A DNA stretch of 64,000 nt from Acidobacteriota bacterium (GTDB lineage Bacteria; Acidobacteriota; Blastocatellia; UBA7656). The notes under the pieces were generated by a model. That model did no database searches. It worked only from the letters and a program-made list of their open reading frames with translations, and was not told the DNA's origin. Shown in pieces: positions 3,703 to 62,415 of this stretch. The stretch spans positions 138,310 to 202,309 of the forward strand of contig JBBPIG010000007.1 in the NCBI GenBank assembly GCA_038040445.1. Direction: 5' to 3'. The position numbers were made by a program, and so were the translations under genes. Every line of letters begins with the position of its first letter. Within the stretch, counting starts at the first letter, position 1.

Positions 3703-3756
3703 TTTACAAACATAAGGCGAGTCGTTAGAATCGAGCGCGCTTCGACCCACACTGAA

Positions 3757-3918
3757 GTTTTGAGTTCAGCCTACAGGCTGCCGGGGTTTCGGAGAGACAA
3801 CCGGCAAGCTAAAGCTTGAACTCTGAACGTTTTGAGTTCAGCCTTCAGGCTGCCGGGGCTTCGGAGGCACGACCGGCAAGCTAAAGCTTGAACTCTGAAC
3901 TCTGAACTCTGAACTCAT
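3757..3918 (+). repeat. Two tandem 72-bp hairpin units plus 7-nt repeats
   Basis: Bases 3757-3828 and 3829-3900 are imperfect copies of the same 72-bp unit. Each starts GTTTTGAGTTCAGCCT and ends AAGCTTGAACTCTGAAC. The two ends of each unit are approximately inverse-complementary (GAGTTCA...CTGCCGG against CCGGCAAGCT...TGAACTC), so each can fold into a long imperfect hairpin. After the second copy the 7-mer CTGAACT repeats (3900-3918). The block lies between the phosphorylase and the asparaginase-like gene; it may serve as terminator-like RNA or be a mobile REP-like element. Confidence 0.85.
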
Positions 3919-3936: not shown

Positions 3937-5073
3937 ATGAAAACCAAGGTAACCCGTCGAGACTTCTTTCGCACAAGCGCCGTCGCGGGATTTGGCGCGC
4001 GGCTGTTCGGAGGCCTGTCGCCGGTCACGTTTGCTCAATCAAAGGGCTCGCGCCCGCTTGTGGTTTCGAGCGCCAACGGATTGCGCGCGACGGCGAAGGC
4101 GATTGAGATGATCCGCGCGGGTAAGGACACGCTTGACGCCGTGGTCGCCGGAGTGAACATCGTAGAAGACGATCCAAAGGATATGAGCGTGGGCTACGGC
4201 GGCCTGCCCAATGAGGACGGCGTCGTCGAGCTGGACGCGAGCGTGATGCACGGCCCGACGAAACGCGCCGGCGCAGTCGCTTCGATTCAGAAAATCAAGA
4301 ACCCATCCAAAGTGGCGCAACTGGTGTTGGAACGCACTGACCACTTGCTGCTGGTCGGACCAGGCGCGCTTCGATTCGCGCTCGCTCACGGGTTCAAGGA
4401 AGAAGAGCTGCTGACCGAAGAGTCTCGCATCGTCTGGCTGCGATGGAAAGAGCGGATGAGCGCGGACGATGGGTGGGGGCCGGGGCTCGCCGCGCCGGAC
4501 GTTCCGCCTACTCAGAGCAAGCTTCTCAACGGCGACCCGAAGCGCGCAGAACTGATCGCTCTCGCAGATGAATACATAGCTCACCCGCCGACCGGCACCA
4601 TCAACTGCATTGCAGTGAACGAACGCGGAGACATCTCGGGCACGACGACGACGAGCGGGCTGTTTCACAAGTTGGCCGGACGCGTTGGAGATTCGCCCTT
4701 GATCGGCTGCGGCCTGTTTGTCGACAACGAAGTCGGCGCCGCGGGATCAACCGGCCGCGGGGAAGAATGCATAAAGATCAACGGCGCGCACACTGTTGTC
4801 GAGATGATGAGGAAGGGCATGTCGCCAACCGACGCCGCGCTCGAAGCCTGCAAGCGGGTGGCTGGGAACTACAACAACAATATGGCGAAGCTCAAAAAGT
4901 TCAGCGTCAATTTCTACGCGCTGAACAAGAACGGCGAGCACGGCGCGGCGAACTTGTGGGGCTACTCGGTGAATTCAAAGGGCGAGCGGAAACGCAATCA
5001 GTACGCGGTACACGATGGTCGAGAGAACAAGCTGCACGATGTTGCGTACTTATACGAATCGCCAGACAAGTAG
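3937..5073 (+). CDS. Tat-exported asparaginase/glycosylasparaginase-type Ntn hydrolase
   Basis: Family T2 enzymes cleave N4-(beta-N-acetylglucosaminyl)-asparagine or isoaspartyl bonds after self-cleavage. The 378-residue precursor begins with a twin-arginine signal (RRDFF, residues 7-11), a hydrophobic stretch and a cleavage site near FAQS (32-35). The autoproteolytic site is likely between Gly220 and Thr221 in PPTGTINCIAV, so Thr221 becomes the N-terminal nucleophile of the beta chain. Downstream GTTTTSGLFHK, GDSPLIGCGLFVDN and GAAGSTGRGEE are typical of glycosylasparaginases. A purine-rich GGAGGACACA precedes the ATG. Neighbouring P1-family peptidase suggests periplasmic peptide and amide scavenging. 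Confidence 0.92.
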   Translation: MKTKVTRRDFFRTSAVAGFGARLFGGLSPVTFAQSKGSRPLVVSSANGLRATAKAIEMIRAGKDTLDAVVAGVNIVEDDPKDMSVGYGGLPNEDGVVELDASVMHGPTKRAGAVASIQKIKNPSKVAQLVLERTDHLLLVGPGALRFALAHGFKEEELLTEESRIVWLRWKERMSADDGWGPGLAAPDVPPTQSKLLNGDPKRAELIALADEYIAHPPTGTINCIAVNERGDISGTTTTSGLFHKLAGRVGDSPLIGCGLFVDNEVGAAGSTGRGEECIKINGAHTVVEMMRKGMSPTDAALEACKRVAGNYNNNMAKLKKFSVNFYALNKNGEHGAANLWGYSVNSKGERKRNQYAVHDGRENKLHDVAYLYESPDK

Positions 5074-8502: not shown

Positions 8503-9513
8503 ATGAAACGAATTGCTTTTGTTCTTTTGCTAACAAGCACACTCGCGCTGCCCGCTTGCACCGGAGTGATAGGCAAGCGCGATGAATCCGGCGGCAAGCT
8601 TCGCGTCGGCATTGTCTTCGACATCGGCGGCAAAGACGACAAGTCTTTCAACGCCGCCGCGTGGGAAGGCGTCAAACGCGCCAAGGAAGAACTCGGTATC
8701 TTTCTTCGCGACGTCGAACCAGGCGACCCCACGTCGATCGAGCCTTCGATGCGAGCCTTCGCGGAACGCGGCTACGATCTGATCGTGGGCGTCGGCTTTG
8801 CTCAGGCGCCCATCATGGACGAGGTCGCCCGCGATTATCCCAACTTGAAGTTTGCCATCATCGACGGAGTGATCGACTTGCCCAACGTCGCCTCCCTGAT
8901 CTTCAAAGAGCACGAGGGATCTTTTCTAGTCGGGATGATCGCAGCGCGGACGTCGAAGACCGGTAAGATCGGATTCGTCGGCGGGATGGATATTCCCCTG
9001 ATCCACAAGTTCGAGACGGGCTACGAAGAAGGCGCGCGCTACGCGAACCCGAAGATCGAAGTGTTCGATAACTACGTGGGCGTGACCGATGCGGCGTGGA
9101 ACAACCCAGGCAAGGGCAAGGAGCTTGCCAAGGCTCAGTTGGAGCGCGGAGCCGACGTCATCTTTCAAGCAGCGGGCAACTCGGGTCTCGGCGTCTTCGA
9201 CGCGGCCGAGGAGACGCACACGCTTGCGATCGGGGTCGATTCCAATCAGAACTGGGTGAAGCCGGGCTTCATACTGACAAGCATGATCAAACGCGTTGAC
9301 GTCTCAGTCTTCAACACGGTGAAGGACGTGGTCGAGGGCCGCTTCAAGGGCGGAATTCATGAATTCGGGATGGAGACTGATGGAGTTGGCTACGCGCTTG
9401 ATGACTACAATCGGAACCTGATCCCGCAGTCGGTGCTTGACGAAGTGGACCGAGCGAAACAGGATATCATTGCAGGACGCATCAAAGTCACCGACGCGAT
9501 GGCCGAGAAGTAG
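8503..9513 (+). CDS. BMP-family substrate-binding lipoprotein
   Basis: BMP/PnrA (TmpC) proteins are the nucleoside-binding components of ABC importers. The precursor of 336 residues has a lipoprotein signal with lipobox LPAC, so Cys19 is lipidated and the protein is membrane-anchored in the periplasm. The mature protein opens KLRVGIVFDIGGKDDKSFN, the family signature, with FAIIDGVIDLPNVASL and IGFVGGMDIPLIHKFETGY further on. No permease or ATPase gene lies beside it here, so partners must be elsewhere. Purine nucleoside as ligand is the family expectation, not shown by sequence alone. Confidence 0.93.
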   Translation: MKRIAFVLLLTSTLALPACTGVIGKRDESGGKLRVGIVFDIGGKDDKSFNAAAWEGVKRAKEELGIFLRDVEPGDPTSIEPSMRAFAERGYDLIVGVGFAQAPIMDEVARDYPNLKFAIIDGVIDLPNVASLIFKEHEGSFLVGMIAARTSKTGKIGFVGGMDIPLIHKFETGYEEGARYANPKIEVFDNYVGVTDAAWNNPGKGKELAKAQLERGADVIFQAAGNSGLGVFDAAEETHTLAIGVDSNQNWVKPGFILTSMIKRVDVSVFNTVKDVVEGRFKGGIHEFGMETDGVGYALDDYNRNLIPQSVLDEVDRAKQDIIAGRIKVTDAMAEK

Positions 9514-9600
9514 AAGTCAGAAGGCAGAAGTCGGAAGACGACCGAGGACCGGAGACGGCCGACCGTCAACCGTCAACCGTCGTCCGTCATCCGTCCTTGC
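9512..9600 (+). repeat. 7-nt-period repeat with complementary halves
   Basis: Between the convergent BMP and lipid-kinase genes, 7-mers of the type AGAAGTC/AGAAGGC are followed by five 7-mers of the type CCGTCAA, CCGTCGT, CCGTCAT, CCGTCCT (about 9564-9598). The purine-rich left half and pyrimidine-rich right half are partly complementary, so the transcript can fold back. It may act as a bidirectional terminator. Confidence 0.7.
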
Positions 9601-29644: not shown

Positions 29645-30172
29645 TCAGAATTCAGATTGCAGATTGCAGATTGCAGATTGCAGAATAACAGAGTTGACGG
29701 TCAAGCCGGCCGCGCTTGTTTGACTTTGTTTAACGTGCACTTTGAATGTGATCACTCGCTCCACTTTTCCGGTGCAGGCCTTTACCCGAACACTCACCAC
29801 GTATTTGCCTGCGTCGCCGATCTGAGGGGCGATCTGCACAACGCCCAACCCCTCCGCGTATTCGGTTCCCCGGGTTTCATTGCGATACGCCGAGGATAGG
29901 TGAACAAAGCCGGGGGCGGAGGGCAGCAATTCAAACTGAGTGTCGCTCTCGTCTTCGAGAAGGCACGTCGCGGTTACAACCACTACGAAGGAGTCGCCTT
30001 CACGGGTGACAAACAGATCTTTGGCAGGGGTAATAAACGGAGGAGCGATCGAAGAATATGCTGTCAGGTTGTCACTCTGGGTACGATCATCATCATCAGC
30101 CAGTGTCTCGCTCCTACCGGCAACGACACAGAAAAACGCCAGGATGACTATTGTTCCAATACGTCTGAGCAT
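29645..30172 (-). CDS. Small secreted protein with a decayed paralogue nearby
   Basis: From ATG 30172 the product has 175 residues. A signal peptide (RRIGTIVILAFFCVVAGRS) is followed by an acidic stretch and a beta-rich domain: SIAPPFITPAKDLFVTREG, VVVTATCLLEDESD, GVVQIAPQIGDAGKYVVSVR. The last part looks like an Ig/cadherin-type fold. The start is supported by GGAGG just before it and by the same arrangement in the pseudogene at 32625-32993. The final codons (ILQSAICNLQSEF) are made of a 7-nt tandem repeat that has run into the 3' end, so the native C-terminus may be changed. Function unknown. Confidence 0.72.
   Translation of the reverse strand: MLRRIGTIVILAFFCVVAGRSETLADDDDRTQSDNLTAYSSIAPPFITPAKDLFVTREGDSFVVVVTATCLLEDESDTQFELLPSAPGFVHLSSAYRNETRGTEYAEGLGVVQIAPQIGDAGKYVVSVRVKACTGKVERVITFKVHVKQSQTSAAGLTVNSVILQSAICNLQSEF
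29653..29685 (+). repeat. 7-nt tandem repeat CAGATTG
   Basis: The 7-mer CAGATTG repeats four times with a partial fifth copy across the 3' end of the minus-strand gene. It is one of several 7-nt-period arrays in this window. Confidence 0.9.
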
Positions 30173-30286
30173 ATCCCTCCAATTAATCATGAACCTAATC
30201 ATCGATAAATGAAGAATACTGACAGAATTCCGGGTCGATGTCGCACTCACTCGCCGGCTTGTGGCTGTTGCCGCTCGCCAGAAGAA

Positions 30287-42708: not shown

Positions 42709-43025
42709 GTGCGACCCCACGAGTTTTCTTTATGCGCGGTCTTGAGTCCGCGGACTAGGATTCTTGCGACTCAATTAGGTTCCACTGGCGCAACAGATTC
42801 TATGAGTACGCCTCCTCGAAGTCAATGGGTCAACGGGGGTACCGGATGAACTCCTGTTCCGGGTGAGCAAATCGGGCAACAGCCACACGATATGGAGCGG
42901 CGCGAGAAGCGTCCCGTTTACTTTTTGCGCTTTTCTCACAAAGAAGCGGAGAGGCTGCTGTGTCGTTGGCTGGAACGCGAGTTGCCGCGATCATCGGTGC
43001 ATCTTATCAATCAGGAGGAAGCATA
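42709..43025. other. Divergent gap, no gene recognised
   Basis: About 315 bases between the cytochrome gene and the glycine-zipper gene. A plus-strand frame is open from 42960 but the signal peptide and AGGAGG of the downstream gene place its start at 43026. No clear promoter or repeat was found. Confidence 0.4.
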
Positions 43026-43472
43026 ATGTTAAAGAGAACCGCAGCAATTGTCCTGGCCGCTACCTTCCTTTCTCTGGCCATCGCGCCGGAGACGCTTGCG
43101 CAACGTTATCGAAGGGCCGGTGACCGCCGGTCGGTAGCTACAAGCTACAATAGTCGCGGCGTGGCGGGGACGCGCTATTACGCGCAACCGTACTACAGCG
43201 GGGTCGGTTCACGTTATTACGGGCAGCCGTATCGCAGTAGCGTCGCCGGAACACGTTATTACGGACAGTCGTACGATCGCGGCTATTACGGCCGATACGA
43301 TCGCGGCCGCTCTACGCGGAACCTGGCTCTGACAGTAGGAGCGCCTGCGGCAATCGGCGCCGGCATCGGAGCACTGGCGGGCGGCGGTAAAGGCGCTGGC
43401 ATCGGAGCGCTTGTTGGAGGCGGAGGCGGTGCATTGTTCTACCTGCTCAACAACCGACGCGGTCGCCGCTAA
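43026..43472 (+). CDS. Secreted glycine-zipper protein with Tyr-rich repeats
   Basis: The 148-residue product, started at ATG 43026 behind AGGAGG, has a signal peptide (RTAAIVLAATFLSLAIAPETLAQ). A Tyr/Gly/Arg-rich region follows with the repeat SRYYGQPYRSSVAGTRYYGQ and similar units. The C-terminal segment is a glycine zipper: GAPAAIGAGIGALAGGGKGAG, then IGALVGGGGGALFYLL. Such zippers insert in or line the outer membrane. The function is unknown. It is followed by a tandem-repeat array and a strong terminator. Confidence 0.72.
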   Translation: MLKRTAAIVLAATFLSLAIAPETLAQRYRRAGDRRSVATSYNSRGVAGTRYYAQPYYSGVGSRYYGQPYRSSVAGTRYYGQSYDRGYYGRYDRGRSTRNLALTVGAPAAIGAGIGALAGGGKGAGIGALVGGGGGALFYLLNNRRGRR

Positions 43473-43479
43473 GAATAAG

Positions 43480-43611
43480 GTTCAGGGTTCAGGGTTCAGC
43501 GTTCAGGGTTCAGCGTTCAGAGTTGAGAGTTCAGCGTTCAGAGTTGAGAGTTCAGCGTTCAGAGTTGAGAGTTCAGCGTTCAGAGTTGAGAGTTCACTGT
43601 TCCGCGTTCAA
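43480..43611 (+). repeat. 7-nt-based array with four 21-bp units
   Basis: From 43480 the 7-mers GTTCAGG and GTTCAGC alternate. From 43508 to 43591 a 21-bp unit (GTTCAGCGTTCAGAGTTGAG plus A), itself three diverged 7-mers, repeats four times in perfect register, then decays. The same 7-mer family occurs on the other strand at 3900-3918. Confidence 0.92.
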
Positions 43612-43667
43612 AGTTGATCGTCGGTTTCGACAACCTGAACCACGAACCCGGAACCATTGAACCAAGC

Positions 43668-43708
43668 AAAAGACATTGGTAGCCGTCCGCCGGCTACCAA
43701 TGTCTTTT
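43668..43708 (+). terminator. Strong intrinsic terminator after the repeat array
   Basis: A 17-bp perfect stem, AAAAGACATTGGTAGCC (43668-43684) with its complement at 43692-43708, has a 7-base loop and a TCTTTT end on the plus strand. It separates the glycine-zipper gene and repeat array from wecB, which therefore needs its own promoter. Confidence 0.88.
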
Positions 43709-44948: not shown

Positions 44949-46490
44949 ATGGACAGACAGCGAGATAGGCCGGATAGGTTCTTTGCAGCGTCACCCCCTC
45001 TTCGCACCACTGCTTTGTTGATCCTGACCACTATTGCCGTGGCGTTTGCGGCGATACTCTGCGCGAGCGGCAACTACAGGGAGGCCGCCGTCCTTGCAGC
45101 GGCCGGTCTGGGCGCTGGGCTTCTCGTCGCCGGGCCCATCTCAGTCCAAGCGGTACTGATTACGTGGTTCGCAACCGCGCCGCTGGCGTCCTTCTATATC
45201 AGGTTTCCTACCGATAGATCGATCGTCACATATAACCGTAGTGTTTTCGCTCTGGTCATAGTAATGCTTTTGCTGAAGCCTGGATGTACGGCGTCGCTCA
45301 CGCAAACAACAAGCGAGGCGCAATCGTCTTCCGGGAATGCGTGGTCGAGACGAGCGGCCTTCTCCGTATCAAAGTTCGAAGTGGCCTGGGCGCTGTTGTC
45401 GGTCCTCGCGCTCGCAAGCGCCGTGGCCGCCTCGAACAATGCCGCCAATGCAGCGCGAATAGCGATCGATACGTTCTGGCTTCCGCTCGTCGCCTTTCAC
45501 GTTGCGAGGAACTATCTGGGCTTGCGGAACGGCGGCAGGTGGTTGTTGCTCGGAGGCATCGCGCTAGCGCTGTTCTTGTTTGCGACCGGCGCCTTCGAGT
45601 TCGTGACCGGCGCCGACTTGTTCGCCTACAAAGGCTCTGAAATAGTGCGCGAGGGCGAGCGCCGTGTGAACGGCCCGTTCGCCGCCGATTCCTCTTTTGC
45701 GATCATCTGTCTGATCCTCTTCTTGTTCCTGCTGGCCGCGGCCAAACTCTTTCGCGTGCGGTTCGACCGGACCGGCAAGCTCGTTTACGCGTGCGCGCTG
45801 ACGGGAGCCGCACTAGGAGCGCTGTTGCCTTTGTTCCGCGGCGTCGCCCTCGCGCTCGTCGCCGGCTGGATCGTGTTGCAATGGAGCGGGCGGTCGCTGC
45901 TTAGTCGGCCGGCCTTTCGTCGCGCCATACCCATGGGCTCGGTTATCGTTCTACTCTTGATCGCCCTTGTTGCGTGGATCGTGACGATCGCTCCGTCGCC
46001 TGTTGGAAACCGCCTTACGGACGCGCGCACTGCCTACGGCAGGCTCGCTACCTGGCAGGCGGCGGCGGAAATCGCATTCGACAATCCCGTCCTTGGCGTC
46101 GGCCTGGCCAACTACGCCGATTATTTCGACGCCTCGCATTACTATTCGGACGAGCCTCCTGAGGAGGTCCTGGACACGAGGGCTGCAGACAGTCCGCACT
46201 CAAATGTCTTGTGGATCGGAGCGGAACTCGGGCTCACGGGGCTTGCGCTGTACTTCGCGGCGAACGCTTATCTCTTCCTGATTGGCTGGCGCGCGCTAAA
46301 GCGAGCGGGAGACTCACGGCAACGAACCGCGGCCTTGTGCTTCCTTGCGCTTGTTGTAGCTTACTGGATCCCAGGGCTGACTCTGGCGAGCGGCTACTAT
46401 TCGGATTTGAATTTGTACTTTCTTTTCCTGCTCGGAGCGCTGTCCAATTCGTCCCTAGTTCCGAGCAGCCGGTCGTTAACCCACGGTTGA
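44949..46490 (+). CDS. O-antigen ligase/polymerase (Wzy/WaaL-like) membrane protein
   Basis: A 513-residue polytopic membrane protein with about 11-12 hydrophobic segments. A large periplasmic loop carries the family end of the O-antigen ligase/polymerase domain: GRLATWQAAAEIAFDNPVLG, then GVGLANYAD and SPHSNVLWIGAELGLTGLALY. These proteins polymerise or ligate repeat units to lipid carriers in the inner membrane. The stop overlaps the next start in TTGA, so it is translationally coupled to the heparinase-like gene. The exact role (polymerase or ligase) is not decidable by sequence. Confidence 0.88.
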   Translation: MDRQRDRPDRFFAASPPLRTTALLILTTIAVAFAAILCASGNYREAAVLAAAGLGAGLLVAGPISVQAVLITWFATAPLASFYIRFPTDRSIVTYNRSVFALVIVMLLLKPGCTASLTQTTSEAQSSSGNAWSRRAAFSVSKFEVAWALLSVLALASAVAASNNAANAARIAIDTFWLPLVAFHVARNYLGLRNGGRWLLLGGIALALFLFATGAFEFVTGADLFAYKGSEIVREGERRVNGPFAADSSFAIICLILFLFLLAAAKLFRVRFDRTGKLVYACALTGAALGALLPLFRGVALALVAGWIVLQWSGRSLLSRPAFRRAIPMGSVIVLLLIALVAWIVTIAPSPVGNRLTDARTAYGRLATWQAAAEIAFDNPVLGVGLANYADYFDASHYYSDEPPEEVLDTRAADSPHSNVLWIGAELGLTGLALYFAANAYLFLIGWRALKRAGDSRQRTAALCFLALVVAYWIPGLTLASGYYSDLNLYFLFLLGALSNSSLVPSSRSLTHG

Positions 46491-48559
46491 TTGCGACGTT
46501 GAAACGGCTCCAAAACATTCGCGAGAAGCTCGACGGCTTGACGGCGGGAGAGATCGCCGGTGAAGCCTTCCTTCGGGCGCGCCGGAAAATCTCACGAGCC
46601 ATAAGCCGCGCGAGTGATACCCCGCAAACAACTTATGTTTCTGACGAGGACCTTCGTCGCGCGCTGGGTGGACAGTCGATCGCCAAAGTCGCTTCAAGAA
46701 TTCGAGAGAGCGGAGGGCCGCACCTGACGCCGGGGCTTGCTGACCTGTCGCAGACGGTTGCCACCGTCAAAGAGTTCTTTCCCGATTCGGTCGAAGCCTC
46801 TCGTCTCGAAGCTGACGCCGTTGTCGATCACAGGATCAGTCTGTTCGGCCGCGCTTACGATCTCGGCCCGAAGATAGATTGGCTCCTCGATCCGCAAGCG
46901 GACCGGGCCTGGCCGCTTGCTCACTTCACTCGGGTCCCGCTGGTGATTGGGCAAGGCGCCGACGTGCGCGTGGTTTGGGAACTCAATCGCCTTCACCACC
47001 TGGTAACGCTGGGCCGCGCATACTTGCTTACCGGCGACGAGCGCTACACCGAAGAGTTCCTGGGTCAGCTCGCCTCATGGTACGAAGACAATCCGCCGCG
47101 CTTCGGAATCAACTGGACTGTTGCAATGGAAGCAGGCATCCGCGCGGTGAATATCATCGCGGCGCTCGAGATGTTCCGTGGCTCGCCACAGGTGACCGGC
47201 GAAGCGATCGAGCTGATACTCAAGACGCTGATCGCTCACGGCAGCTTCATCCGCGGCAACCTCGAGTTCTCTTACCGCGTGCCGAGCAATCACTACCTCT
47301 CGAACCTTATCGGCCTGTTTGTGATTGGGATGATGATGCCCGAACTTGGTGAAGCTCGCCGCTGGGTGAGCTTCAGCGCGCGACGGCTGGTGAAGGAGAT
47401 GGACCGGCAAGTGCTCGCGGACGGCGTCGATTACGAAGGCGCGATTGGCTATCACCGTTTCGTGCTTGAAATCTTCGCGCTGTTTTTCTCGATGAGTCAC
47501 GCAAACGGCATTCAAATTCCCGGCCGCTACTGGGTGCGGCTGGAAGCGATGTTTGACTTCGTGCGCCACTATCTCAAACTCGATGGGACTGCGCCGATGA
47601 TCGGCGATTCAGACGATGGGCGGTTGATCAAATTCAAAACTCGTCCGTCCGGCGATCATACCTACTTGATGTCGATCGCCGCGGTGTTGATCGAGAACGA
47701 GAGGTTCAAGCAGTCGAGCCGCTTCGACGAAGAAGCCATCTGGTGGTTCGGACTCGAGGGGCGCGAAGCCTTTGACAGCCTGGCGATCGGCAAACAACAG
47801 CCGGCTTCCCGAGCTTTCCCTGAGGCGCAGATTTATATTCAACGGGGCGTAACACAAGGAGAGGACGACGGGCCGCTCTACGCCATCATCGACTGCGGCG
47901 ATCACGGCGCGCGCGGCCGCGGCTCGCACGCACATTCGGATGCGCTGTCGATTGAGGTGTTCGCGTTCAACCGGACTTTTCTTCGAGACCCGGGAACGTA
48001 CGTCTACACGGCAAGCGAGCGGGAGCGCAATCTGTTCCGGTCAACCGCTTATCACAATACCGTTCGTGTCGATGGCGAGGAGATCAGCCAGGAAACTCCA
48101 GGCGAGCTTTTCGCGTTCGCCTCTAACGTGCGCCCGCACGTGAATCTGTGGGAGAGCACGAGTGAACGCGACGTGCTCGACGCTGAGCATTACGCATATC
48201 AACGTCTCAGCTCGCCGGTGACTCATCGCCGCATCGTCACGCTGGACAAGCGCGAAGGCTACTGGATCATCAAAGACATCTTCACCGGCAAGGGCAGGCA
48301 TCGATTCGAGTTCTTCTTCAACTTCGACGTTGGGCTTGAAGTCACGATCGACGCGAGCAACCGCGCCATCGCTCGCGACGAAAGGGCGGCGCTCACGATC
48401 GTGCCTGCTTGCGATCACAAGCTTGAAGCGATGATAGAGTCGCGAGGGGTCTCACCCACCTACGGGATTCGGGTAGCGTCGTCTGCTATCATTTACAGTC
48501 TTGCGGCGGACGTTCCGTTGGAGGTGAGTTTTCAGTTGTTACCATCGATGACCATGTGA
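46487..48559 (+). CDS. Heparinase II/III-family polysaccharide lyase-like protein
   Basis: The product, started at TTG 46487 (coupled to the upstream stop), has 690 residues. A helical alpha/alpha toroid spans about 60-380, with NRLHHLVTLGRAYLLTGDERY, GINWTVAMEAGIRAVNIIAA and SNHYLSNLIGLFVIG. The beta-sandwich heparinase II/III domain starts at about 450, with DHGARGRGSHAHSDALSIEV and RDPGTYVYTASERERNLFRS. This pair of domains is common in exopolysaccharide clusters, where it may cleave or trim polymer. An upstream in-frame extension to 46211 lies within the ligase gene and looks random. Confidence 0.9.
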   Translation: MIATLKRLQNIREKLDGLTAGEIAGEAFLRARRKISRAISRASDTPQTTYVSDEDLRRALGGQSIAKVASRIRESGGPHLTPGLADLSQTVATVKEFFPDSVEASRLEADAVVDHRISLFGRAYDLGPKIDWLLDPQADRAWPLAHFTRVPLVIGQGADVRVVWELNRLHHLVTLGRAYLLTGDERYTEEFLGQLASWYEDNPPRFGINWTVAMEAGIRAVNIIAALEMFRGSPQVTGEAIELILKTLIAHGSFIRGNLEFSYRVPSNHYLSNLIGLFVIGMMMPELGEARRWVSFSARRLVKEMDRQVLADGVDYEGAIGYHRFVLEIFALFFSMSHANGIQIPGRYWVRLEAMFDFVRHYLKLDGTAPMIGDSDDGRLIKFKTRPSGDHTYLMSIAAVLIENERFKQSSRFDEEAIWWFGLEGREAFDSLAIGKQQPASRAFPEAQIYIQRGVTQGEDDGPLYAIIDCGDHGARGRGSHAHSDALSIEVFAFNRTFLRDPGTYVYTASERERNLFRSTAYHNTVRVDGEEISQETPGELFAFASNVRPHVNLWESTSERDVLDAEHYAYQRLSSPVTHRRIVTLDKREGYWIIKDIFTGKGRHRFEFFFNFDVGLEVTIDASNRAIARDERAALTIVPACDHKLEAMIESRGVSPTYGIRVASSAIIYSLAADVPLEVSFQLLPSMTM

Positions 48560-48584
48560 CTTCCGCCCTCTGACCTCTGACCTT

Positions 48585-50597
48585 ATGTGCGGTATTTGCG
48601 GAATCTATGAATACGGCGCGAGCCAGCCGGCGGTGAGTGACGCGCTCGTCGTTCGTATGCGCGACACGATGACTCATCGCGGACCCGACGACGCCGGTGT
48701 GTACGTCAGCGAAGATCGTCGCGTAGGACTCGGCAACCGGCGGCTTGCGATCGTAGACTTATCACCCGCCGGCCGCAACCCGATGCCTAACGAAAACGGG
48801 CGTGTCTGGATAACCTTCAACGGAGAAATCTACAATCACGAATCGCTCCGTCCCGGACTCGAAGCGAGAGGCCATCGCTATCGTTCGCGCACCGACACCG
48901 AAACGATCATTCATCTCTATGAAGAGCGCGGCCTGGATTTCGTTCACGAACTCGAAGGCGACTTTGCAATCGGGATTTGGGATGAAGACGCCAACCGCAT
49001 CGTGCTCGCGCGTGATCGCATCGGCGTCAAGCCGCTCTACTACACGCTCGCGGGCGGCCGGTTGATCTTCGCGTCCGAGATAAAAGCCATACTCGAGCAT
49101 CCGGCGGTTTCGCGCGACATCAACGAAGAAGCTCTCTATCACTACCTGACTTTCCTGGCGACTCCAGCGCCTCAGACACTGTTCGCGGGCATTCAAAAAC
49201 TTCCCGCCGGCTGCATGCTTACGTGCGACGCGCGAGGCGATGTGAAGGTCACCCGCTACTGGGACGCGATCGTCGAGCCGCGCGATTCCGCGGAGTTTCA
49301 AGACGAGCAGGCGGTAGCCGAAAAGCTGCGCTGCCTTCTTAGAGAGTCGATAGCCAAGCGGATGATGAGCGACGTCCCCTTCGGCGTGTTCCTGTCGGGC
49401 GGAATTGATTCGACTGCCAACGTCGCCCTGATGGCTGAGTTGATGGATCAACCGGTTCGCACCTTCACCGTTGGCTTTCGCGACAACCCGGCTTATAACG
49501 AGATCGAAGAAGCGCGCTCGGTTGCTCGCGAGTACGGCACCGATCATCACGAAGTCATGATCAGTCAGCAAGAGCTTATCGATTTTATTCCCGACTTGAT
49601 CTTTCACCAGGACGAACCGATCGCCGACCCGGTCTGCGTGCCGCTGTATTACGTTTCAAAGCTTGCGCGCGATACCGGCACAAAAGTCATTCAAGTGGGC
49701 GAAGGATCGGACGAGCTTTTCTGCGGCTACAGAAACTACGTTCTCTATCTTAGATTTCACGATCTGTTTTGGCGGCGCGCGATCCGGTGGCCTCAGCCGA
49801 TGCGTGGTATCGCCTCCGCGGCGGGCCAGGCATTCTACCGGCTCGGCGGCGGGCGGCTTCTGCCGAACGTGGGTAAGATGATTCCGGATTTGATGCGAAG
49901 GCTGGCAGCGCGCGAAGAACTTTTCTGGGGCGGAACATTTGTCTTTGATGAGGTGAACAAGCAGCGGCTGCTGACGCCCCAGGCCAGAGCGAGGCTGGCC
50001 GCGGCCGGCGGAAACGCACTCTCGTCTCACTCGATCATAAGCGCGGATCTCGATCGACTGCTTACGGCAAAGCCATCCGCCGATCAACTCGAGCAGATGA
50101 TCTACGTCGAGTTGAAACTCCGCCTTCCGGAGCTTCTGCTGATGCGCGTCGACAAGATGACGATGGCAACCTCGGTCGAGGCCCGCGTCCCGTTCCTGGA
50201 TCACAAGCTGGTTGAGTTTGCGATGGGCTTGCCGCGCGACCTCAAGTATCGCAACGGCGAAACCAAATACATACTCAAGCGCGCGCTCGAGGGCGTGGTG
50301 CCTGAGCGGATCATCAAGAGGAAGAAGAAAGGCTTCGGCGTTCCGATAAATGAATGGATGCTCGATCAGCTTGGCGGTTTCGTCGAGGAGTCGCTGTTCG
50401 ACTCTTCTCTGCGCAAGAGAGAGTTATTCGATTATGGCTATATCAAGCAGCTTCTAGATGCGCATCGAGCGCGCCGCGCCAATTATTCGTTCTTCCTGTG
50501 GAGTCTGCTGAATCTGAGTCTTTGGTATGACCGCTGGATTGAAGGAGGCGCAACCGGACCGAAAGCAATGGAGGTCGATATGAGCCTCCGAGTTTGA
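48585..50597 (+). CDS. asnB: Asparagine synthase-type glutamine amidotransferase
   Basis: It uses glutamine and ATP to amidate a carboxyl group; in polysaccharide clusters the acceptor is often a sugar acid or amino-acid decoration. The 670-residue product starts MCGICGIYEYG, so Cys2 is the glutaminase nucleophile. RGPDDAGVY, FNGEIYNH and RTDTETIIHLYEE follow. The synthetase part has the ATP loop FLSGGIDSTANVAL and VGEGSDELFCGY. Two CCTCTGA 7-mers lie just upstream (48567-48580). The length exceeds 550-600-residue AsnB, as in exosortase-associated amidotransferases. Confidence 0.93.
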   Translation: MCGICGIYEYGASQPAVSDALVVRMRDTMTHRGPDDAGVYVSEDRRVGLGNRRLAIVDLSPAGRNPMPNENGRVWITFNGEIYNHESLRPGLEARGHRYRSRTDTETIIHLYEERGLDFVHELEGDFAIGIWDEDANRIVLARDRIGVKPLYYTLAGGRLIFASEIKAILEHPAVSRDINEEALYHYLTFLATPAPQTLFAGIQKLPAGCMLTCDARGDVKVTRYWDAIVEPRDSAEFQDEQAVAEKLRCLLRESIAKRMMSDVPFGVFLSGGIDSTANVALMAELMDQPVRTFTVGFRDNPAYNEIEEARSVAREYGTDHHEVMISQQELIDFIPDLIFHQDEPIADPVCVPLYYVSKLARDTGTKVIQVGEGSDELFCGYRNYVLYLRFHDLFWRRAIRWPQPMRGIASAAGQAFYRLGGGRLLPNVGKMIPDLMRRLAAREELFWGGTFVFDEVNKQRLLTPQARARLAAAGGNALSSHSIISADLDRLLTAKPSADQLEQMIYVELKLRLPELLLMRVDKMTMATSVEARVPFLDHKLVEFAMGLPRDLKYRNGETKYILKRALEGVVPERIIKRKKKGFGVPINEWMLDQLGGFVEESLFDSSLRKRELFDYGYIKQLLDAHRARRANYSFFLWSLLNLSLWYDRWIEGGATGPKAMEVDMSLRV

Positions 50598-54379: not shown

Positions 54380-55886
54380 CCTGGATGTTGGTCTGGTTTC
54401 CGGTGACGGCCGGTATCCGTCGGAGTCTCCGTTTCATCCGCCTGAGTTGTATCCAGAGTATCCCCACGAAGAACTAAATACTGACCCGGCCAACCAGGTA
54501 TACACGATGGTGCGGGAGTCTTTGCGGCTGTTGGGGATGGACAAAGCGAACTTCGGCCGGCCGGAGTGGGACCCTCTTGGCGAGCTGATTTCGCCGGGGC
54601 AGCGCGTGCTGATCAAACCTAATTTCGTGCTGCACTTCAACGCCGGCCAGGGCCCCCTCGACGCGGTCATTACCCATCCTTCGGTGATTCGAGCCATATG
54701 CGATTATGTCGTCATTGCGCTTCGCGGCGACGGCGAATTAGTTGTGGGCGATGCTCCGCAGATGAACTGCGATTTCGCCCGGCTTTGCCAGGCTTCGGGC
54801 ATGGATATCCTGGCGACCTACCTTGAATCGGCCTGCGCCCGGCGAGGCATCGCGCTACGGTTGGTGGATTTTAGAAAGGAACAAACGCGCTACAAACACG
54901 GAATCGTTTGGGAGCGCAAAGCGCTAAACAATGGCGAGTCTGTACGAGTGAGCCTCGGCGAAGACAGTTCCATGGAGAACATCGATGGCCGGTTGTTGTA
55001 CGGAGCTGACTACTCGCGGCGCGAGACTGTGCAGGCGCACGAAGGCCATCGCCACGAATACGTCGTTGCGCGCCCGGTGTTATCGAGCGACGTGGTGATC
55101 TCCGTGCCCAAACTGAAGGTTCATCGCAAGGTGGGAGCAACTCTAAACCTGAAGAACATTGTCGGGATCAATACCGACAAGAACCATCTGGCTCATTATC
55201 GCGTCGGGTCTCCTGCGAGCGGCGGGGACGAGTTCTCCGACCCGGGATGGGAAGATCGAGCCGAACGCGTTCTGTCGGACATCTTACTTGGACGCTCGTG
55301 GCGGTTTGGAAAATATCCCTTTCTTGCCTGGAGAGCCTTCCGAAAGGCTCTCGGGTATTTTGCCGCCGACTCGGCCAGGCCGGCTTTCAGTTACGGCAAC
55401 TGGCATGGAAATGACACCGCATGGCGGATGGTGCTCGACTTGAATCGAATACTGCTATACGCCGACGCCGAAGGCCGTTTGCAAGAGCTGCCGACTCGTA
55501 AGTATTTCTCCGTTATTGACGGGGTGATCGGCGGAGAAGGCGAAGGTCCATTGCATCCGGCTGCTTATCCGTCTGGGGTCGTGCTTGCGGGGTTCAATCC
55601 GGTGGCCGTGGATTGGGTAGCAGCACGGTTGATGGGATTCGAGGCCGGCCGGATTCCACTCTACCGGCATGCGCTCGAACAGATGCGCGAATGGCTCCCC
55701 GATTTCGCGATCGAAAGAATTCGCGTTGTCTCGAACGTTCCGAGTTGGGAGGCTATTATGAAGACCAGCGAGGTGGTGTTCAATTTCCGAGCGCCTGCGG
55801 GCTGGCGCGGTCAGATCGAACTACAGGAGCCGGCCCCGGAATCTGCCCGGCAAGAAGAGACAACCGTTGGCATGCTATCTCAGTAG
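54348..55886 (+). CDS. DUF362-domain protein
   Basis: The product has about 512 residues from ATG 54348; TTG 54360 with GAGG six bases upstream is an alternative start. DUF362 is usually found with Fe-S domains, but no cysteine cluster is visible. Family motifs include VLIKPNFV, VVGDAPQMNC, VISVPKLKVHRKVGATLNLK, VIDGVIGGEGEGPLHP and GFNPVAVDWVAARLMG. The function of the family is not established. Overlap with the CapK-like gene suggests a coupled activity on a carboxylate or lipid-linked sugar. Confidence 0.85.
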   Translation: MRFALKSLLANLDVGLVSGDGRYPSESPFHPPELYPEYPHEELNTDPANQVYTMVRESLRLLGMDKANFGRPEWDPLGELISPGQRVLIKPNFVLHFNAGQGPLDAVITHPSVIRAICDYVVIALRGDGELVVGDAPQMNCDFARLCQASGMDILATYLESACARRGIALRLVDFRKEQTRYKHGIVWERKALNNGESVRVSLGEDSSMENIDGRLLYGADYSRRETVQAHEGHRHEYVVARPVLSSDVVISVPKLKVHRKVGATLNLKNIVGINTDKNHLAHYRVGSPASGGDEFSDPGWEDRAERVLSDILLGRSWRFGKYPFLAWRAFRKALGYFAADSARPAFSYGNWHGNDTAWRMVLDLNRILLYADAEGRLQELPTRKYFSVIDGVIGGEGEGPLHPAAYPSGVVLAGFNPVAVDWVAARLMGFEAGRIPLYRHALEQMREWLPDFAIERIRVVSNVPSWEAIMKTSEVVFNFRAPAGWRGQIELQEPAPESARQEETTVGMLSQ

Positions 55887-55902
55887 AGTCATACGTCGAA
55901 AA

Positions 55903-57204
55903 ATGACGCCTTCGAACAGACTACACGGTCTATATCTCCGTTTCCTCAACAGAGAGACGCCGCGACAGGCAGGCATGCTCTTTTCAGCCCAGACCGCATC
56001 GATGTTCGCCGGATTCTGCGCCAGCGTGATCCAAGCGAGATGGATGGAACCGGCGGAGATGGGCCGCTTCGCTTTTTGCCTCAGCATCATCGTTGTCACA
56101 AGCCTGTTCTTCGAGTTTGGCATCTCCTCGGCGGGGGCTCGCGTGCTTGCGCTCGCGCACGACCGCCAGAGCGAACGGCAGGCGCTGGGGGCGCTCGTCT
56201 TGATGACGCTTGCGATCAGCCTCGTTTTTTCCGCGTTCATCGCCCTCACGGCGGCGCCGATCGATTTGATCTTCAACAAGGACGTGAAATGGCTGCTGAT
56301 CGCGACGGCAGCGCTGGCGCTTTTTCAGCCGTTCCAGTTGTTGATCGAGCAGAGTTGCCAGGGTCTCAATCAGATTCGCCGGCTTTCGCTGTTTCAGTTG
56401 ATGATGTCAGGCGGTTACCTTCTGATATTGGCTGTGCTGGTAGCCACGCAGCGGCTGACCGCAGGAACGGCCCTGGGAGCCTATTTGGCGGGCACCGGGT
56501 TGGCGTCGGTCTGGACACTGGTTCGAATGCAACCGAGCTTTAAAGGCGCCTCGGGCTACATAAAGGTGACTCTTAAGGAGACTCGCGGGTACGGGTTCAA
56601 TCTTTACCTGGCGCGAATAAGCGGAATGGCTTCATCGCGCTCGGATCAACTGGCGATCGGTTATTTCCTGGCGGGCACTGCCCCGCTGGGCATGTACGCC
56701 ATTGCGCAAAAGTTCAGCAATCCGGTAGCGCTGATCGGCCGCTCGCTGGCGGTCACGCGATTCCGAGCCTTCGCGCGGCTCAACAGAGTGCCGCCGCGGA
56801 TCACCAGGTGGAACGCGATCGCGGTTGTGTCCGCATCCGCCGGGCTGATTGCGCTCGGGCCGGTTGCGTTGCGGCTGTTCTTCCCGAAATACAGCGACGC
56901 GGCGCCGCTTCTGCTTCCGTTCGCCGTCATGAATTCGTTTGTCGGGTTGTTTCAGCCCTACAACGTATTCCTTGCCTCGCACGGCCGAGGCGCTGAATTG
57001 CGAAACATCGTTCTGATAGTCGGCGCCGCCACGATTGCCACGCTGGTGATATTGGTGCCACGCTACGGCATCGCGGGAGCGGCGTGGACGGGGGCCGGGG
57101 CGATGGCGCTGGACTACCTACTGCACCTTCTCTACTATCGAAAGTTCAAGCGGACTCTCGAAACGGGCACGACCGGGCAAGAAGGACAGGAGGCTGAGGA
57201 CTGA
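55903..57204 (+). CDS. Wzx-type polysaccharide flippase
   Basis: The 433-residue product (ATG 55903; TTG 55867 would overlap the upstream gene) is a polytopic protein of the MATE/MOP exporter superfamily, with about 12-14 hydrophobic segments. The N-terminal part has GMLFSAQTASMFAGFCASVI and the first motif RWMEPAEMGRFAFCLSIIVV. Later segments include DQLAIGYFLAGTAPLGMYAIA. Such proteins flip lipid-linked repeat units to the periplasm. It is the export step of the Wzx/Wzy-type route implied by the O-antigen ligase/polymerase-like gene at 44949. Confidence 0.9.
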   Translation: MTPSNRLHGLYLRFLNRETPRQAGMLFSAQTASMFAGFCASVIQARWMEPAEMGRFAFCLSIIVVTSLFFEFGISSAGARVLALAHDRQSERQALGALVLMTLAISLVFSAFIALTAAPIDLIFNKDVKWLLIATAALALFQPFQLLIEQSCQGLNQIRRLSLFQLMMSGGYLLILAVLVATQRLTAGTALGAYLAGTGLASVWTLVRMQPSFKGASGYIKVTLKETRGYGFNLYLARISGMASSRSDQLAIGYFLAGTAPLGMYAIAQKFSNPVALIGRSLAVTRFRAFARLNRVPPRITRWNAIAVVSASAGLIALGPVALRLFFPKYSDAAPLLLPFAVMNSFVGLFQPYNVFLASHGRGAELRNIVLIVGAATIATLVILVPRYGIAGAAWTGAGAMALDYLLHLLYYRKFKRTLETGTTGQEGQEAED

Positions 57205-57240
57205 GAAAATGAACACAACACGCCACAACTCAGTCCTCGG
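57194..57240 (+). repeat. Hairpin around the methyltransferase start codon
   Basis: CTGAGGACTGAG (57194-57205) can pair with CTCAGTCCTCGG (57229-57240) at 11 of 12 positions. The ATG at 57209 lies in the loop, and the AGGAGG Shine-Dalgarno (57188-57193) abuts the left arm. The right side continues as 7-nt repeats (CAGTCCT, CGGTCCT, CAGAGCG, CAGTCCT). It could modulate translation or simply be a repeat insertion. Confidence 0.6.
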
Positions 57241-58057
57241 TCCTCAGAGCGCAGTCCTTGTAGACTACAAGCAACGCGCTCGTGAGCAATGGAGCGCGAA
57301 CCCATGCGGTGCTCACGTCGCGCGCGAGCATGAGTTTGGGACTCGCGAGTACTTCGATGCGATTGAACACAATCGCTACGTCGAGTACGCGCCTTGGATG
57401 AAACCGATAATTGGCTTCGATCGCTATGCCGGAAAACGGCTGCTCGAAGTCGGAGTCGGAACGGGCACCGACCTGCTACAGTTCGCCCGCGGCGGCGCGC
57501 TGGTTACCGGCGTCGACCTCACGCTGCGAAGCATCGAGATCGCCCGGCGCAGGTTTGAGGTATACGGCTTCGCCGGCGAGTTCGCGATTGGCGACGGCGA
57601 AAGCCTCAGCTTTCCCGACGCTAGCTTCGACGTAGCTTACTCGTTCGGCGTGTTACATCACGCTCCCGATACCCAGGGCGCCGTTCGCGAGATTCATCGG
57701 GTGCTCGAGCGCGGAGGCAAGGCCATCGTGATGCTGTATCATCGTCGATCGCTTTACTACTGGGGCTCGCTCGTCGGCAAACACGGAGTACTGGGCGGGG
57801 AGCTTCTTAAAGAGAGCATGACAGAGATCATGGCCCGCCACGTCGAATACTCGGAAACAGGCGGACGCCCGCTGGTAAAGGCTTACACGCGTGCCCAAGC
57901 TCGCCGCTTGTTTAGCGGCTTCAGCGAATGCGACATCAGTGTAAACCAGCTCTCGCGCCGCGAGCTGGGGCAGATCGGGCGCTTAATGCCTGAAGCGGTT
58001 TTCCAAGGGCTTGCTCGAAGTTTCGGCTGGAACCTCCTAATAACGGCAACCAAGTGA
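57209..58057 (+). CDS. Class I SAM-dependent methyltransferase
   Basis: The 282-residue product has a methyltransferase-11-like Rossmann domain. Motif I is RLLEVGVGTGTDLLQFA with acidic VTGVDLTLRSIEIARRR. Motifs II/III are SLSFPDASFDVAYSFGVLHH and GGKAIVMLYHRRS. The first 17 residues (NTTRHNSVLGPQSAVL) are encoded by the 7-nt repeat and hairpin and are likely not part of the fold. No other in-frame start codon occurs before conserved sequence. It probably O- or N-methylates a sugar or lipid in the cluster. It overlaps the GT4 gene by 4 bases. Confidence 0.87.
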   Translation: MNTTRHNSVLGPQSAVLVDYKQRAREQWSANPCGAHVAREHEFGTREYFDAIEHNRYVEYAPWMKPIIGFDRYAGKRLLEVGVGTGTDLLQFARGGALVTGVDLTLRSIEIARRRFEVYGFAGEFAIGDGESLSFPDASFDVAYSFGVLHHAPDTQGAVREIHRVLERGGKAIVMLYHRRSLYYWGSLVGKHGVLGGELLKESMTEIMARHVEYSETGGRPLVKAYTRAQARRLFSGFSECDISVNQLSRRELGQIGRLMPEAVFQGLARSFGWNLLITATK

Positions 58058-61313: not shown

Positions 61314-62366
61314 ATGCCTAAGGTACGTTTTGGATTCTGGATGCCGATATTCGGCGGATGGCTTCGCAACGTCGATGACGAGCAAATGCACGCGACGTTC
61401 GACTACAACAAAAGGCTTGCTCAGCGGGCTGAACAGATCGGCTTCGATATCACGCTGCTCGCGGAGTTGAACCTGAACGACATCAAAGGCGCGACGGCTC
61501 CGGTGCTCGAGTGCTGGACTACTGCCGCGGCAATCGCGTCGGTCACCGAGAAGGTTGAATTGATGAATGCGATTCGTCCGGGATTCAGGCTGCCGGCAAT
61601 CACGGCTAAGATGTCGGCTAACATCGATCAGATTTCCAACGGCCGCTTCAGTCTGAACATCGTGTCCGCGTGGTGGGAACAGGAGATGCGCGAGTACGGC
61701 GGCACGTGGGTCGGTCACGATCAGCGCTACGAACGCACGCGCGAGTTCATCGAAGTGATGCGTGGGATGTGGTCCCAGGAAGAGTTCAGCTACGAAGGGC
61801 AATATTACAAAGTTGAAAAGGCGCATCTTGAACCTAAGCCTGTGCGCAAACCCTGGCCGACGCTCTACGCGGGCGGGGAATCGGAAGATGCCAAGCAGAT
61901 GATCTCGCGTTACTGCGACGGCTACTTGATGCACGGCGATCCTCCCGAGAACGTGCGTCCGAAAGTCGAGGAGATGGAACGTAGAAGACGCGAGCTCGGC
62001 CTGGGAACGATGACTTACGGGATCGCGGCTTACGTGATCTGCCGCAAGAGCGACGCCGAAGTGAAGAAGGAGATCGATCGCATCTGCGACGTAAAGGACA
62101 CGGCCGGTTATTTTGGCTTCAAGGATTTCACCACGCAGAGCAAGCTCGAGCGCGAGTTGTCGTTGCGTGATTACAGCGTGTCGAATCGCGGCTTGCGAAG
62201 CGGGCTCACGGGGACGCCGGAGCAAATCGCCGAGCGGGTGATCGAGTTTCGCTACGCGGGCGTCGAGATATTCTTGATGCAGATGAGCCCGATGAGAGAA
62301 GAGATGGAGCGCTTTGCCGAAGAGGTGATTCCTTTAGTAAACTCTGGCCTCGCCGACTCTGCGTGA
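61314..62366 (+). CDS. LLM-class flavin-dependent monooxygenase (SsuD/SfnG-like)
   Basis: The family uses FMNH2 and oxygen on alkylsulfonates, sulfones or other small molecules in the cytosol. The 350-residue length and motifs fit: FGFWMPIFGGWLRN near the start, TAKMSANIDQISNGRFSLNIV, the SAWWEQEMREYG loop and PWPTLYAGGESEDAKQM. LTGTPEQIAERV ends the barrel. GGGAG lies 8 bases before the ATG. The reductase partner is not nearby. SfnG (dimethylsulfone) or SsuD (alkanesulfonate) are both possible. Confidence 0.9.
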   Translation: MPKVRFGFWMPIFGGWLRNVDDEQMHATFDYNKRLAQRAEQIGFDITLLAELNLNDIKGATAPVLECWTTAAAIASVTEKVELMNAIRPGFRLPAITAKMSANIDQISNGRFSLNIVSAWWEQEMREYGGTWVGHDQRYERTREFIEVMRGMWSQEEFSYEGQYYKVEKAHLEPKPVRKPWPTLYAGGESEDAKQMISRYCDGYLMHGDPPENVRPKVEEMERRRRELGLGTMTYGIAAYVICRKSDAEVKKEIDRICDVKDTAGYFGFKDFTTQSKLERELSLRDYSVSNRGLRSGLTGTPEQIAERVIEFRYAGVEIFLMQMSPMREEMERFAEEVIPLVNSGLADSA

Positions 62367-62376
62367 GCTCAATTTA

Positions 62377-62400
62377 ACGCAAAGACGCAAAGACGCCAAG
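62377..62400 (+). repeat. 8-nt tandem repeat ACGCAAAG
   Basis: ACGCAAAG occurs twice followed by ACGCCAAG in the gap before the hydrolase gene. It is of the same short-period class as the other arrays. Confidence 0.85.
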
Positions 62401-62415
62401 AAAGAAGGGAGCGCT

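Follow-up and report, generated by a model that had tools for sequence, protein, structure and literature searches.

Arrays of short tandem units, most with a period of 7 nt, recur through the window (the whole 64-kb stretch of DNA analysed here). In our view they are likely to form the inverted ends, mostly of ORF-less hairpins, of selfish elements that resemble S23p-bearing intervening sequences (IVS) and occupy post-stop sites in protein operons. Across three phyla the arrays are associated with genes of one family, PF05635; the arms are inverted, they are sited behind stop codons, and elements present in one species are absent from the corresponding sites of another. The first-pass annotation had suspected a common generating mechanism behind arrays with a shared period and unshared sequences. 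A common source is supported here by a single architecture (inverted arms, post-stop position) and a single flanked gene family, PF05635, despite the differing units.

Period-7 arrays in the window and the genome

The window (G000:C7:138310-202309) was taken from a genome of 6.75 Mb in 72 contigs. The organism is probably an acidobacterium of class Blastocatellia, as its genus mate G001 agrees in PF05635 coordinates and scores with "Blastocatellia bacterium isolate Chersky_418". TRF recovered all six period-7 arrays that had been named in the window, two of them weakly, and period 7 accounted for 12 of its 33 rows. Uninterrupted lag-7 runs of at least 12 matches numbered four in the window and zero in each of 20 order-3 Markov simulations, and there were six runs of at least 10 matches compared with a simulation mean of 0.15 (maximum 1). 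The reading of the first-pass annotation had depended on a genome-wide excess of period 7, and this excess is present: in 400 kb of contig C1, chosen regardless of repeats, we counted 39 period-7 segments and 0-4 segments for each other period from 2 to 13. The pattern GTTCAGNGTTCAGNGTTCAG, built on the GTTCAG heptad, occurred 153 times in the genome, while its reversed control did not occur. The arrays and related features of the window are as follows.

3889-3916, plus strand: (TGAACTC)4, first annotated at 3900-3918, 20 nt before the ATG at 3937 (TRF)
9512-9595, plus strand: drifting heptad series AGAAGTC ... ACCGTCA, partly self-complementary (sequence, fold)
29653-29684, no strand assigned: single array (CAGATTG)4.6 at the 3´ end of the minus-strand ORF 29645-30250 (TRF)
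43480-43615, plus strand: arm 1 of the main hairpin, about 19 copies of GTTCAGR, partly as 21-nt GTTCAGCGTTCAGAGTTGAGA super-units (TRF, sequence)
43632-43664, no strand assigned: arm 2, degenerate inverted heptads of the CCTGAAC / CGAACCC type, pairing with arm 1 (sequence, fold)
43668-43708, plus strand: hairpin AAAGACATTGGTAGCC...TCTTTT resembling an intrinsic terminator, belonging to the upstream gene and located beyond the heptad hairpin (sequence)
48567-48583, plus strand: CCTCTGACCTCTGACCT, only 2.4 units, lying 7 nt beyond the stop of ORF 46211-48559 and immediately upstream of the ATG at 48585
57190-57205, plus strand: AGGCTGAGGACTGAG, the first arm of a short hairpin; it overlaps the stop codon that ends ORF 55867-57204 (fold)
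57229-57262, plus strand: arm 2 of the short hairpin, CTCAGTCCTCGGTCCTCAG, in the N-terminal codons of ORF 57209-58057 (methyltransferase, Pfam)
62377-62401, plus strand: period-8 array (ACGCAAAG)3, 10 nt past the stop codon of ORF 61314-62366, a heptad-like siting (TRF)

Two statements about these arrays hold in part. The shared period stands as a strong period-7 excess but not as a strict rule, as some related arrays have a period of 8 or 9, including the period-8 array at 62377-62401. Likewise, there are several unit types, but not a different 7-mer for every array, since the arrays at 3889 and 43480 have the unit GTTCAGA in common, on opposite strands. The complementary halves that had been noted for some arrays are correct and common; the regions 43480-43665 and 57190-57245 both fold as hairpins. 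At the first of these, arm 1 begins 6-7 nt past the stop codon of ORF 42960-43472, and the predicted fold (-70.2 kcal/mol) has a stem joining both arms. At the second, the TRF array (57229-57258) is weak, with 65% matches. The second arm here provides N-terminal codons of the downstream host gene (57209-57262), as also seen at L032 15440-15500, where the arm apparently provides the start codon as well, with a Shine-Dalgarno-like AAGGAG. No second arm was found at the locus of the array at 29653-29684. The series at 9512-9595 begins in the stop codon of ORF 8503-9513 (PnrA-like ABC substrate-binding protein, Pfam), and TRF split the array first annotated at 9512-9600 into 9506-9537 and 9562-9595. 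Its heptads shift stepwise from AGAAGTC to ACCGTCA, as if each had been copied from its neighbour with errors. Another period-8 array, CAAAGACG, lies behind the stop codon at L032 16030-16110 and forms a hairpin where the genus mate G001 has a period-7 hairpin.

The (TGAACTC)4 array differs in its surroundings. Positions 3752-3900 hold two copies of a 72-nt REP-like hairpin unit (GAGTTCAGCCTTCAGGCTGCCGG...CCGGCAAGCTAAAGCTTGAACT), the TGAACTC end of which runs on as the array at 3889-3916, and palindromes related to this unit occur at C1 134395 and C1 175400. REP/REPIN-RAYT systems consist of small non-coding intergenic hairpins, copies of which are moved in trans, and the arrays could be extended tails of REP palindromes mobilized by a Y1 (HUH) transposase. 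The TGAACTC arrays adjoining REP-like palindromes at 3752-3916, C1 134395 and C1 175400 fit this idea, as does the location of E. coli REPs, which are also found near stop codons. Most unit types (GATCGAR, AATTGAR, AAAAGGC, GTCCGTA), however, have no adjoining REP palindrome among the listed arrays, which we looked over without counting, and no core common to the loops was apparent by eye. REPs also have a conserved palindrome instead of tandem arms, and they come without PF05635. A REP origin was therefore rejected for the family as a whole, suiting only some GTTCAGR arrays, and we consider the RAYT-type explanation very improbable.

Arrays also break assemblies. Contig C3 ends within a GTTCAGG array (G000:C3 381110-381129), and at L032 10302-10401 a stretch of Ns falls within a GATCCTC array.

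Hairpin structure and position behind stop codons

Folding showed many arrays to be the arms of long hairpins, with heptads on the stop side, a loop of unrelated sequence and a complementary heptad arm. In 864 kb of the genome, which include a 20-kb stretch of C12 chosen for its richness in arrays, we found 88 segments in 62 loci, of which 57 were intergenic according to a home-made gene caller and 25 had at least two segments. Extrapolating from these 62 loci, the genome would carry hundreds of ORF-less arrays or hairpins. Only two of the 57 intergenic loci lie between divergent genes, though divergent gaps make up 36,033 of the 152,202 intergenic bp. Among the loci outside divergent gaps and not mostly genic, the array starts at most 8 nt behind a stop codon in 39 of 55, compared with a mean of 17.5 and a maximum of 26 in 2000 trials of random placement in the same gaps, a control that allows only partly for short operon gaps. 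For 36 stretches from other bacteria, selected with a GTTCAGR 27-mer, 14 of 33 loci lie within 8 nt of a stop codon (null 6.5, maximum 12 of 1000 trials). In two relatives of the same class the tendency was weak (8/19 loci; null 4.1, maximum 9).

We found 33 arm pairs in the genome with at least 70% arm identity. By eye, without counting, the G-rich arm is on the stop side in most loci and the C-rich arm in a few. Of 45 arm pairs, only 5 mirrored the order of unit variants from one arm to the other better than shuffled order did (p ≤ 0.05), and therefore the arms today are not simple inverted copies. Mismatches between arms, read on the sense strand, showed no excess of G.T over A.C (32 and 47, respectively), giving no sign of selection for RNA pairing.

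Comparison with G001 revealed differences at entire sites. At the ortholog of the main window locus, G001 has no heptads: ~27 nt separate its stop codon from a terminator-like hairpin, and the hairpin at 43480-43665 was therefore gained here or lost in G001. At C1 34973-35498, a GATCGAR arm 2 nt behind a stop codon is followed by a PF05635 gene and an inverted arm that enters the start of the next gene; a 20-kb comparison showed that the equivalent host genes in G001 are ~15 nt apart with nothing between them. Conversely, G001 C160 9420-9740 has a GATYGAR hairpin with a 103-bp loop that keeps a PF05635 remnant (E 0.0019), and its counterpart here is a different hairpin with a period of 8. A third site carries a hairpin in each of the two species, with both arms AAAAGGC in one and both arms AGAAGGC in the other. 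As the units match between arms and differ by species, the arms change in concert.

These observations bear on whether the hairpins are selected RNA structures of 3´ UTRs or intercistronic regions, serving as terminators, mRNA stabilisers or G-quadruplex regulators without any mobile element. The position after stop codons and the scarcity between divergent genes would be expected of such structures, and most heptameric repeats of this kind are transcribed according to a survey (PMC4692102). Against this, the hairpins are unconserved between two congeneric species at the window locus and at C1 34973-35498, the arm mismatches are without G.T bias, and a terminator-like hairpin is already present at 43668-43708. 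We therefore regard a purely functional origin as unlikely.

PF05635 genes between inverted arms

The gene found between arms belongs to PF05635 (23S_rRNA_IVP, S23p; E 1.3e-25, Pfam), relatives of which have been solved as crystal structures 2gsc (XCC0516 of X. campestris) and 2rld. S23p is the four-helix-bundle protein of 23S rRNA intervening sequences. The genome has six PF05635 matches, five above the Pfam cut-off, and five of the six loci have inverted heptad arms on both sides; four of these five two-armed loci have a unit class in common with ORF-less arrays. None of the six matches is inside the window, and the window hairpins are ORF-less.

We extended this analysis to PF05635 loci sampled regardless of repeats from this genome and 39 genomes of its class, 61 Bacteroidota and 59 Cyanobacteriota drawn evenly, and to a fourth sample of 25 named genomes from about nine phyla selected for the GTTCAGR pattern. 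The loci are part of the matches, mostly the best per genome. L182 (strand not listed), the duplicates L200 and L205, and one Bacteroidota locus that was too short on one side (leaving 28 of 29) were dropped. The control consisted of non-PF05635 genes of 250-700 bp from our own, array-rich genome. For each group, the counts are of loci with arms of period 7-9 on both sides, with an arm on at least one side, and with an inverted match beyond all 10 shuffles.

Blastocatellia: both sides 22/29; at least one side 28/29; inverted match 26/29
Bacteroidota: both sides 13/28; at least one side 23/28; inverted match 22/28
Cyanobacteriota: both sides 19/29; at least one side 23/29; inverted match 23/29
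GTTCAGR-selected genomes: both sides 17/25; at least one side 24/25; inverted match 20/25
Control genes: both sides 4/209; at least one side 46/209; inverted match 28/209

With the same scoring, no PF05635 locus had arms of periods 4-6 or 10-12 on both sides. Period 7 dominates the arms, followed by period 8, with period 9 rare. Among the 39 loci that have a period-7 arm at each end (from 65 loci, two duplicates included), 31 have units that are complementary between the two arms at 6 or more of 7 positions. The upstream arm starts between -15 and +10 nt from the stop codon of the same-strand upstream ORF in 35 of 51 loci, in 15 of 16 for Bacteroidota and in 7 of 14 for cyanobacteria, counts that come without a null and, for the latter two groups, cover loci with a scored arm and a same-strand upstream ORF of at least 100 codons. 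Some loci are more elaborate. L166 and L168 (G021 and G025) carry many extra GCGAGTG-type arrays with a higher-order spacing of ~36 bp and are possibly nested elements, and L208, from an Akkermansia MAG, has arms that look like period 15, made of GGTTTAG and GCTGTAGG in alternating steps of 7 and 8, which the period 7-9 scoring missed.

These data also speak to slippage. Duplications behind genes could grow as slipped-strand microsatellites, with replication favouring period 7 and the flanking of PF05635 being incidental. Variation within arms is by substitution and copy number, a mirrored order of variants is mostly absent, and heptameric SSRs are over-represented in many bacteria according to that survey (PMC4692102), all of which slippage accommodates. 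Yet it would not produce an inverted partner arm within 0-100 bp, place arrays at stop codons, flank one gene family on two sides across three phyla or make whole elements present in one species and absent from another. This leaves slippage as a quite unlikely source, and somewhat less credible than selected RNA hairpins.

Array density follows the gene family as well. Among 25 genomes of the class, which are related to each other, arrays of periods 7 and 8 numbered 0.84 per 100 kb in the 11 genomes without PF05635 and 8.4 in the 14 with it (Mann-Whitney p = 0.006). PF05635 was found in 22 of 25 genomes selected only for the GTTCAGR 27-mer and in none of 14 control genomes. The correspondence has exceptions: the 40 kb sampled from each of the PF05635-rich genomes G036, G019 and G016 had no period-7 arrays, and G003 has arrays and no PF05635.

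PF05635 resembles Avd, the accessory protein of DGRs (PMC10053308). Working in trans with S23p, as an Avd homologue, a reverse transcriptase might write the units and insert copies, and the iterated short units do look templated. Of the 39 relatives in the class, however, just 19 have RVT_1, which is absent from the PF05635-rich genomes G036 (17 copies), G032 (10), G008 (9) and G024 (6). Genomes with up to 17 PF05635 genes thus lack the reverse transcriptase that accompanies the Avd-like protein of a DGR, and the retro-element source that the first-pass annotation had proposed to search for is not supported. These RVT_1-less, PF05635-rich genomes rule out a reverse transcriptase in trans as a requirement, and we give the retroelement explanation very little credence.

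Relation to known repeats and rRNA intervening sequences

The S23p-bearing rRNA IVS of Coxiella have terminal inverted repeats and a 28-bp terminal stem and are excised by RNase III; two to three tandem heptamers (GACAGAT), the number of which varies by strain, precede the S23p start codon, and S23p is described there as having no known function (PMC4990558). The elements described here resemble the 23S rRNA IVS of Coxiella and Leptospira in having an S23p/PF05635 ORF inside and complementary termini that form a stem (PMC4990558). This plan of complementary ends with an ORF inside is the reason we read the intergenic elements as IVS-like. In contrast to rRNA IVS, they lie behind the stop codons of protein genes and not in an rRNA helix, each locus has its own 7-9-nt units, arrayed to form the arms, and there are several S23p copies per genome. 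On account of their location, they are not members of the rRNA IVS class.

Other heptamers have been described. Xanthomonas has GGGAATC arrays and Nostoc GGGGA(C/T)T arrays; they are found between genes, in the vicinity of stop codons, in sense orientation, and often as convergent pairs, of which two Xanthomonas genomes have 70 and 75. They lie at different genes in related species and showed no general link to mobile elements (PMC4692102). Intergenic tandem 7-nt units near stop codons and in convergent pairs are likewise found here, whereas that study describes one G-rich unit per genome, as opposed to the many unit types and the PF05635 link of the present arrays (PMC4692102). X. campestris, of the genus with GGGAATC-type repeats, encodes the PF05635 protein XCC0516. 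The TAACTGA direct repeats of Beggiatoaceae are intergenic heptamers present in several phyla, for which the author weighs a mobile carrier; they differ from ours in being a single unit, near start codons, and direct rather than inverted (PMC4679880). Further mentions are a Nostoc operon with ttgtcagttgtcagttgtca-type repeats (PMC2408588) and 23S rRNA IVP, listed where a figure legend deals with CRISPR-associated proteins (PMC10910872).

The comparison with the heptanucleotide repeats (STRR) of filamentous cyanobacteria, drawn in the first-pass annotation, appears apt: of the 29 PF05635 loci from cyanobacteria, 19 are flanked by arms both upstream and downstream, built of units such as GTCATTA, a classic STRR unit that occurs at L302 and L303. 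Cyanobacterial STRR are degenerate heptads with several types per genome. To our knowledge, the STRR of heterocystous cyanobacteria have been described without an associated gene or element. Across the titles and abstract openings covered, with few subscription papers and no preprints, none described heptad arrays beside PF05635 genes in a setting other than rRNA; the association is apparently unreported, a weak indication of novelty.

A shared set of units between phyla would be another link, and 9 of 42 non-GTTCAGR segments from non-acidobacterial loci have units in the lexicon of our genome (shuffled-unit mean 1.75, maximum 6 of 2000). We give this overlap little weight because six of the nine are of one class, a single MAG contributes several, and there is scarcely any enrichment of near matches (30 versus 25.2).

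In the organization we propose, a full element would consist of a host stop codon, an arm of 7-nt (sometimes 8- or 9-nt) units, an S23p gene running in the direction of the host gene, and an inverted arm that can enter the next gene. Most copies, including every one in the window, would be ORF-less hairpins or single arms. Paired with each other in the transcript, the two arms would make one long stem, and RNase III may then release the element from the operon mRNA, as happens with 23S rRNA. Such excision could explain why an insert in the gap after a stop codon is tolerated. The elements would be mobile, with S23p taking part. The ORF-less hairpins may descend from full elements; against this descent for the majority, a gene remnant was detectable in only 1 of the 43 loops of at most 103 bp, out of 46 hairpins in this genome and G001.

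More tentatively, STRR, GGGAATC, TAACTGA and other arrays of period 7-9 could all be ends or relics of one ancient S23p family. Its members would insert into, or be tolerated only at, sites right behind stop codons, would move without a transposase or reverse transcriptase, and would rewrite their arms wherever they settle, copying a short local template over and over. We find this broader scheme possible and a good deal less probable than the IVS-like reading of the arrays in this genome.

The IVS-like reading offers an explanation for a class of heptad repeats that has long puzzled biologists. Heptad repeats are used in the typing of cyanobacterial strains (STRR fingerprinting), and we know of no established origin for STRR heptads. 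Once heptad repeats and S23p are joined, each becomes a testable clue to the other. If the association is what it seems, S23p would be predicted to act on the arms and the hairpins to be processed from mRNA, and an element without a recognised transposase would have reached about nine phyla. In many MAGs it may have shaped the ends of genes, small genes annotated "four helix bundle" and the places where assemblies break.
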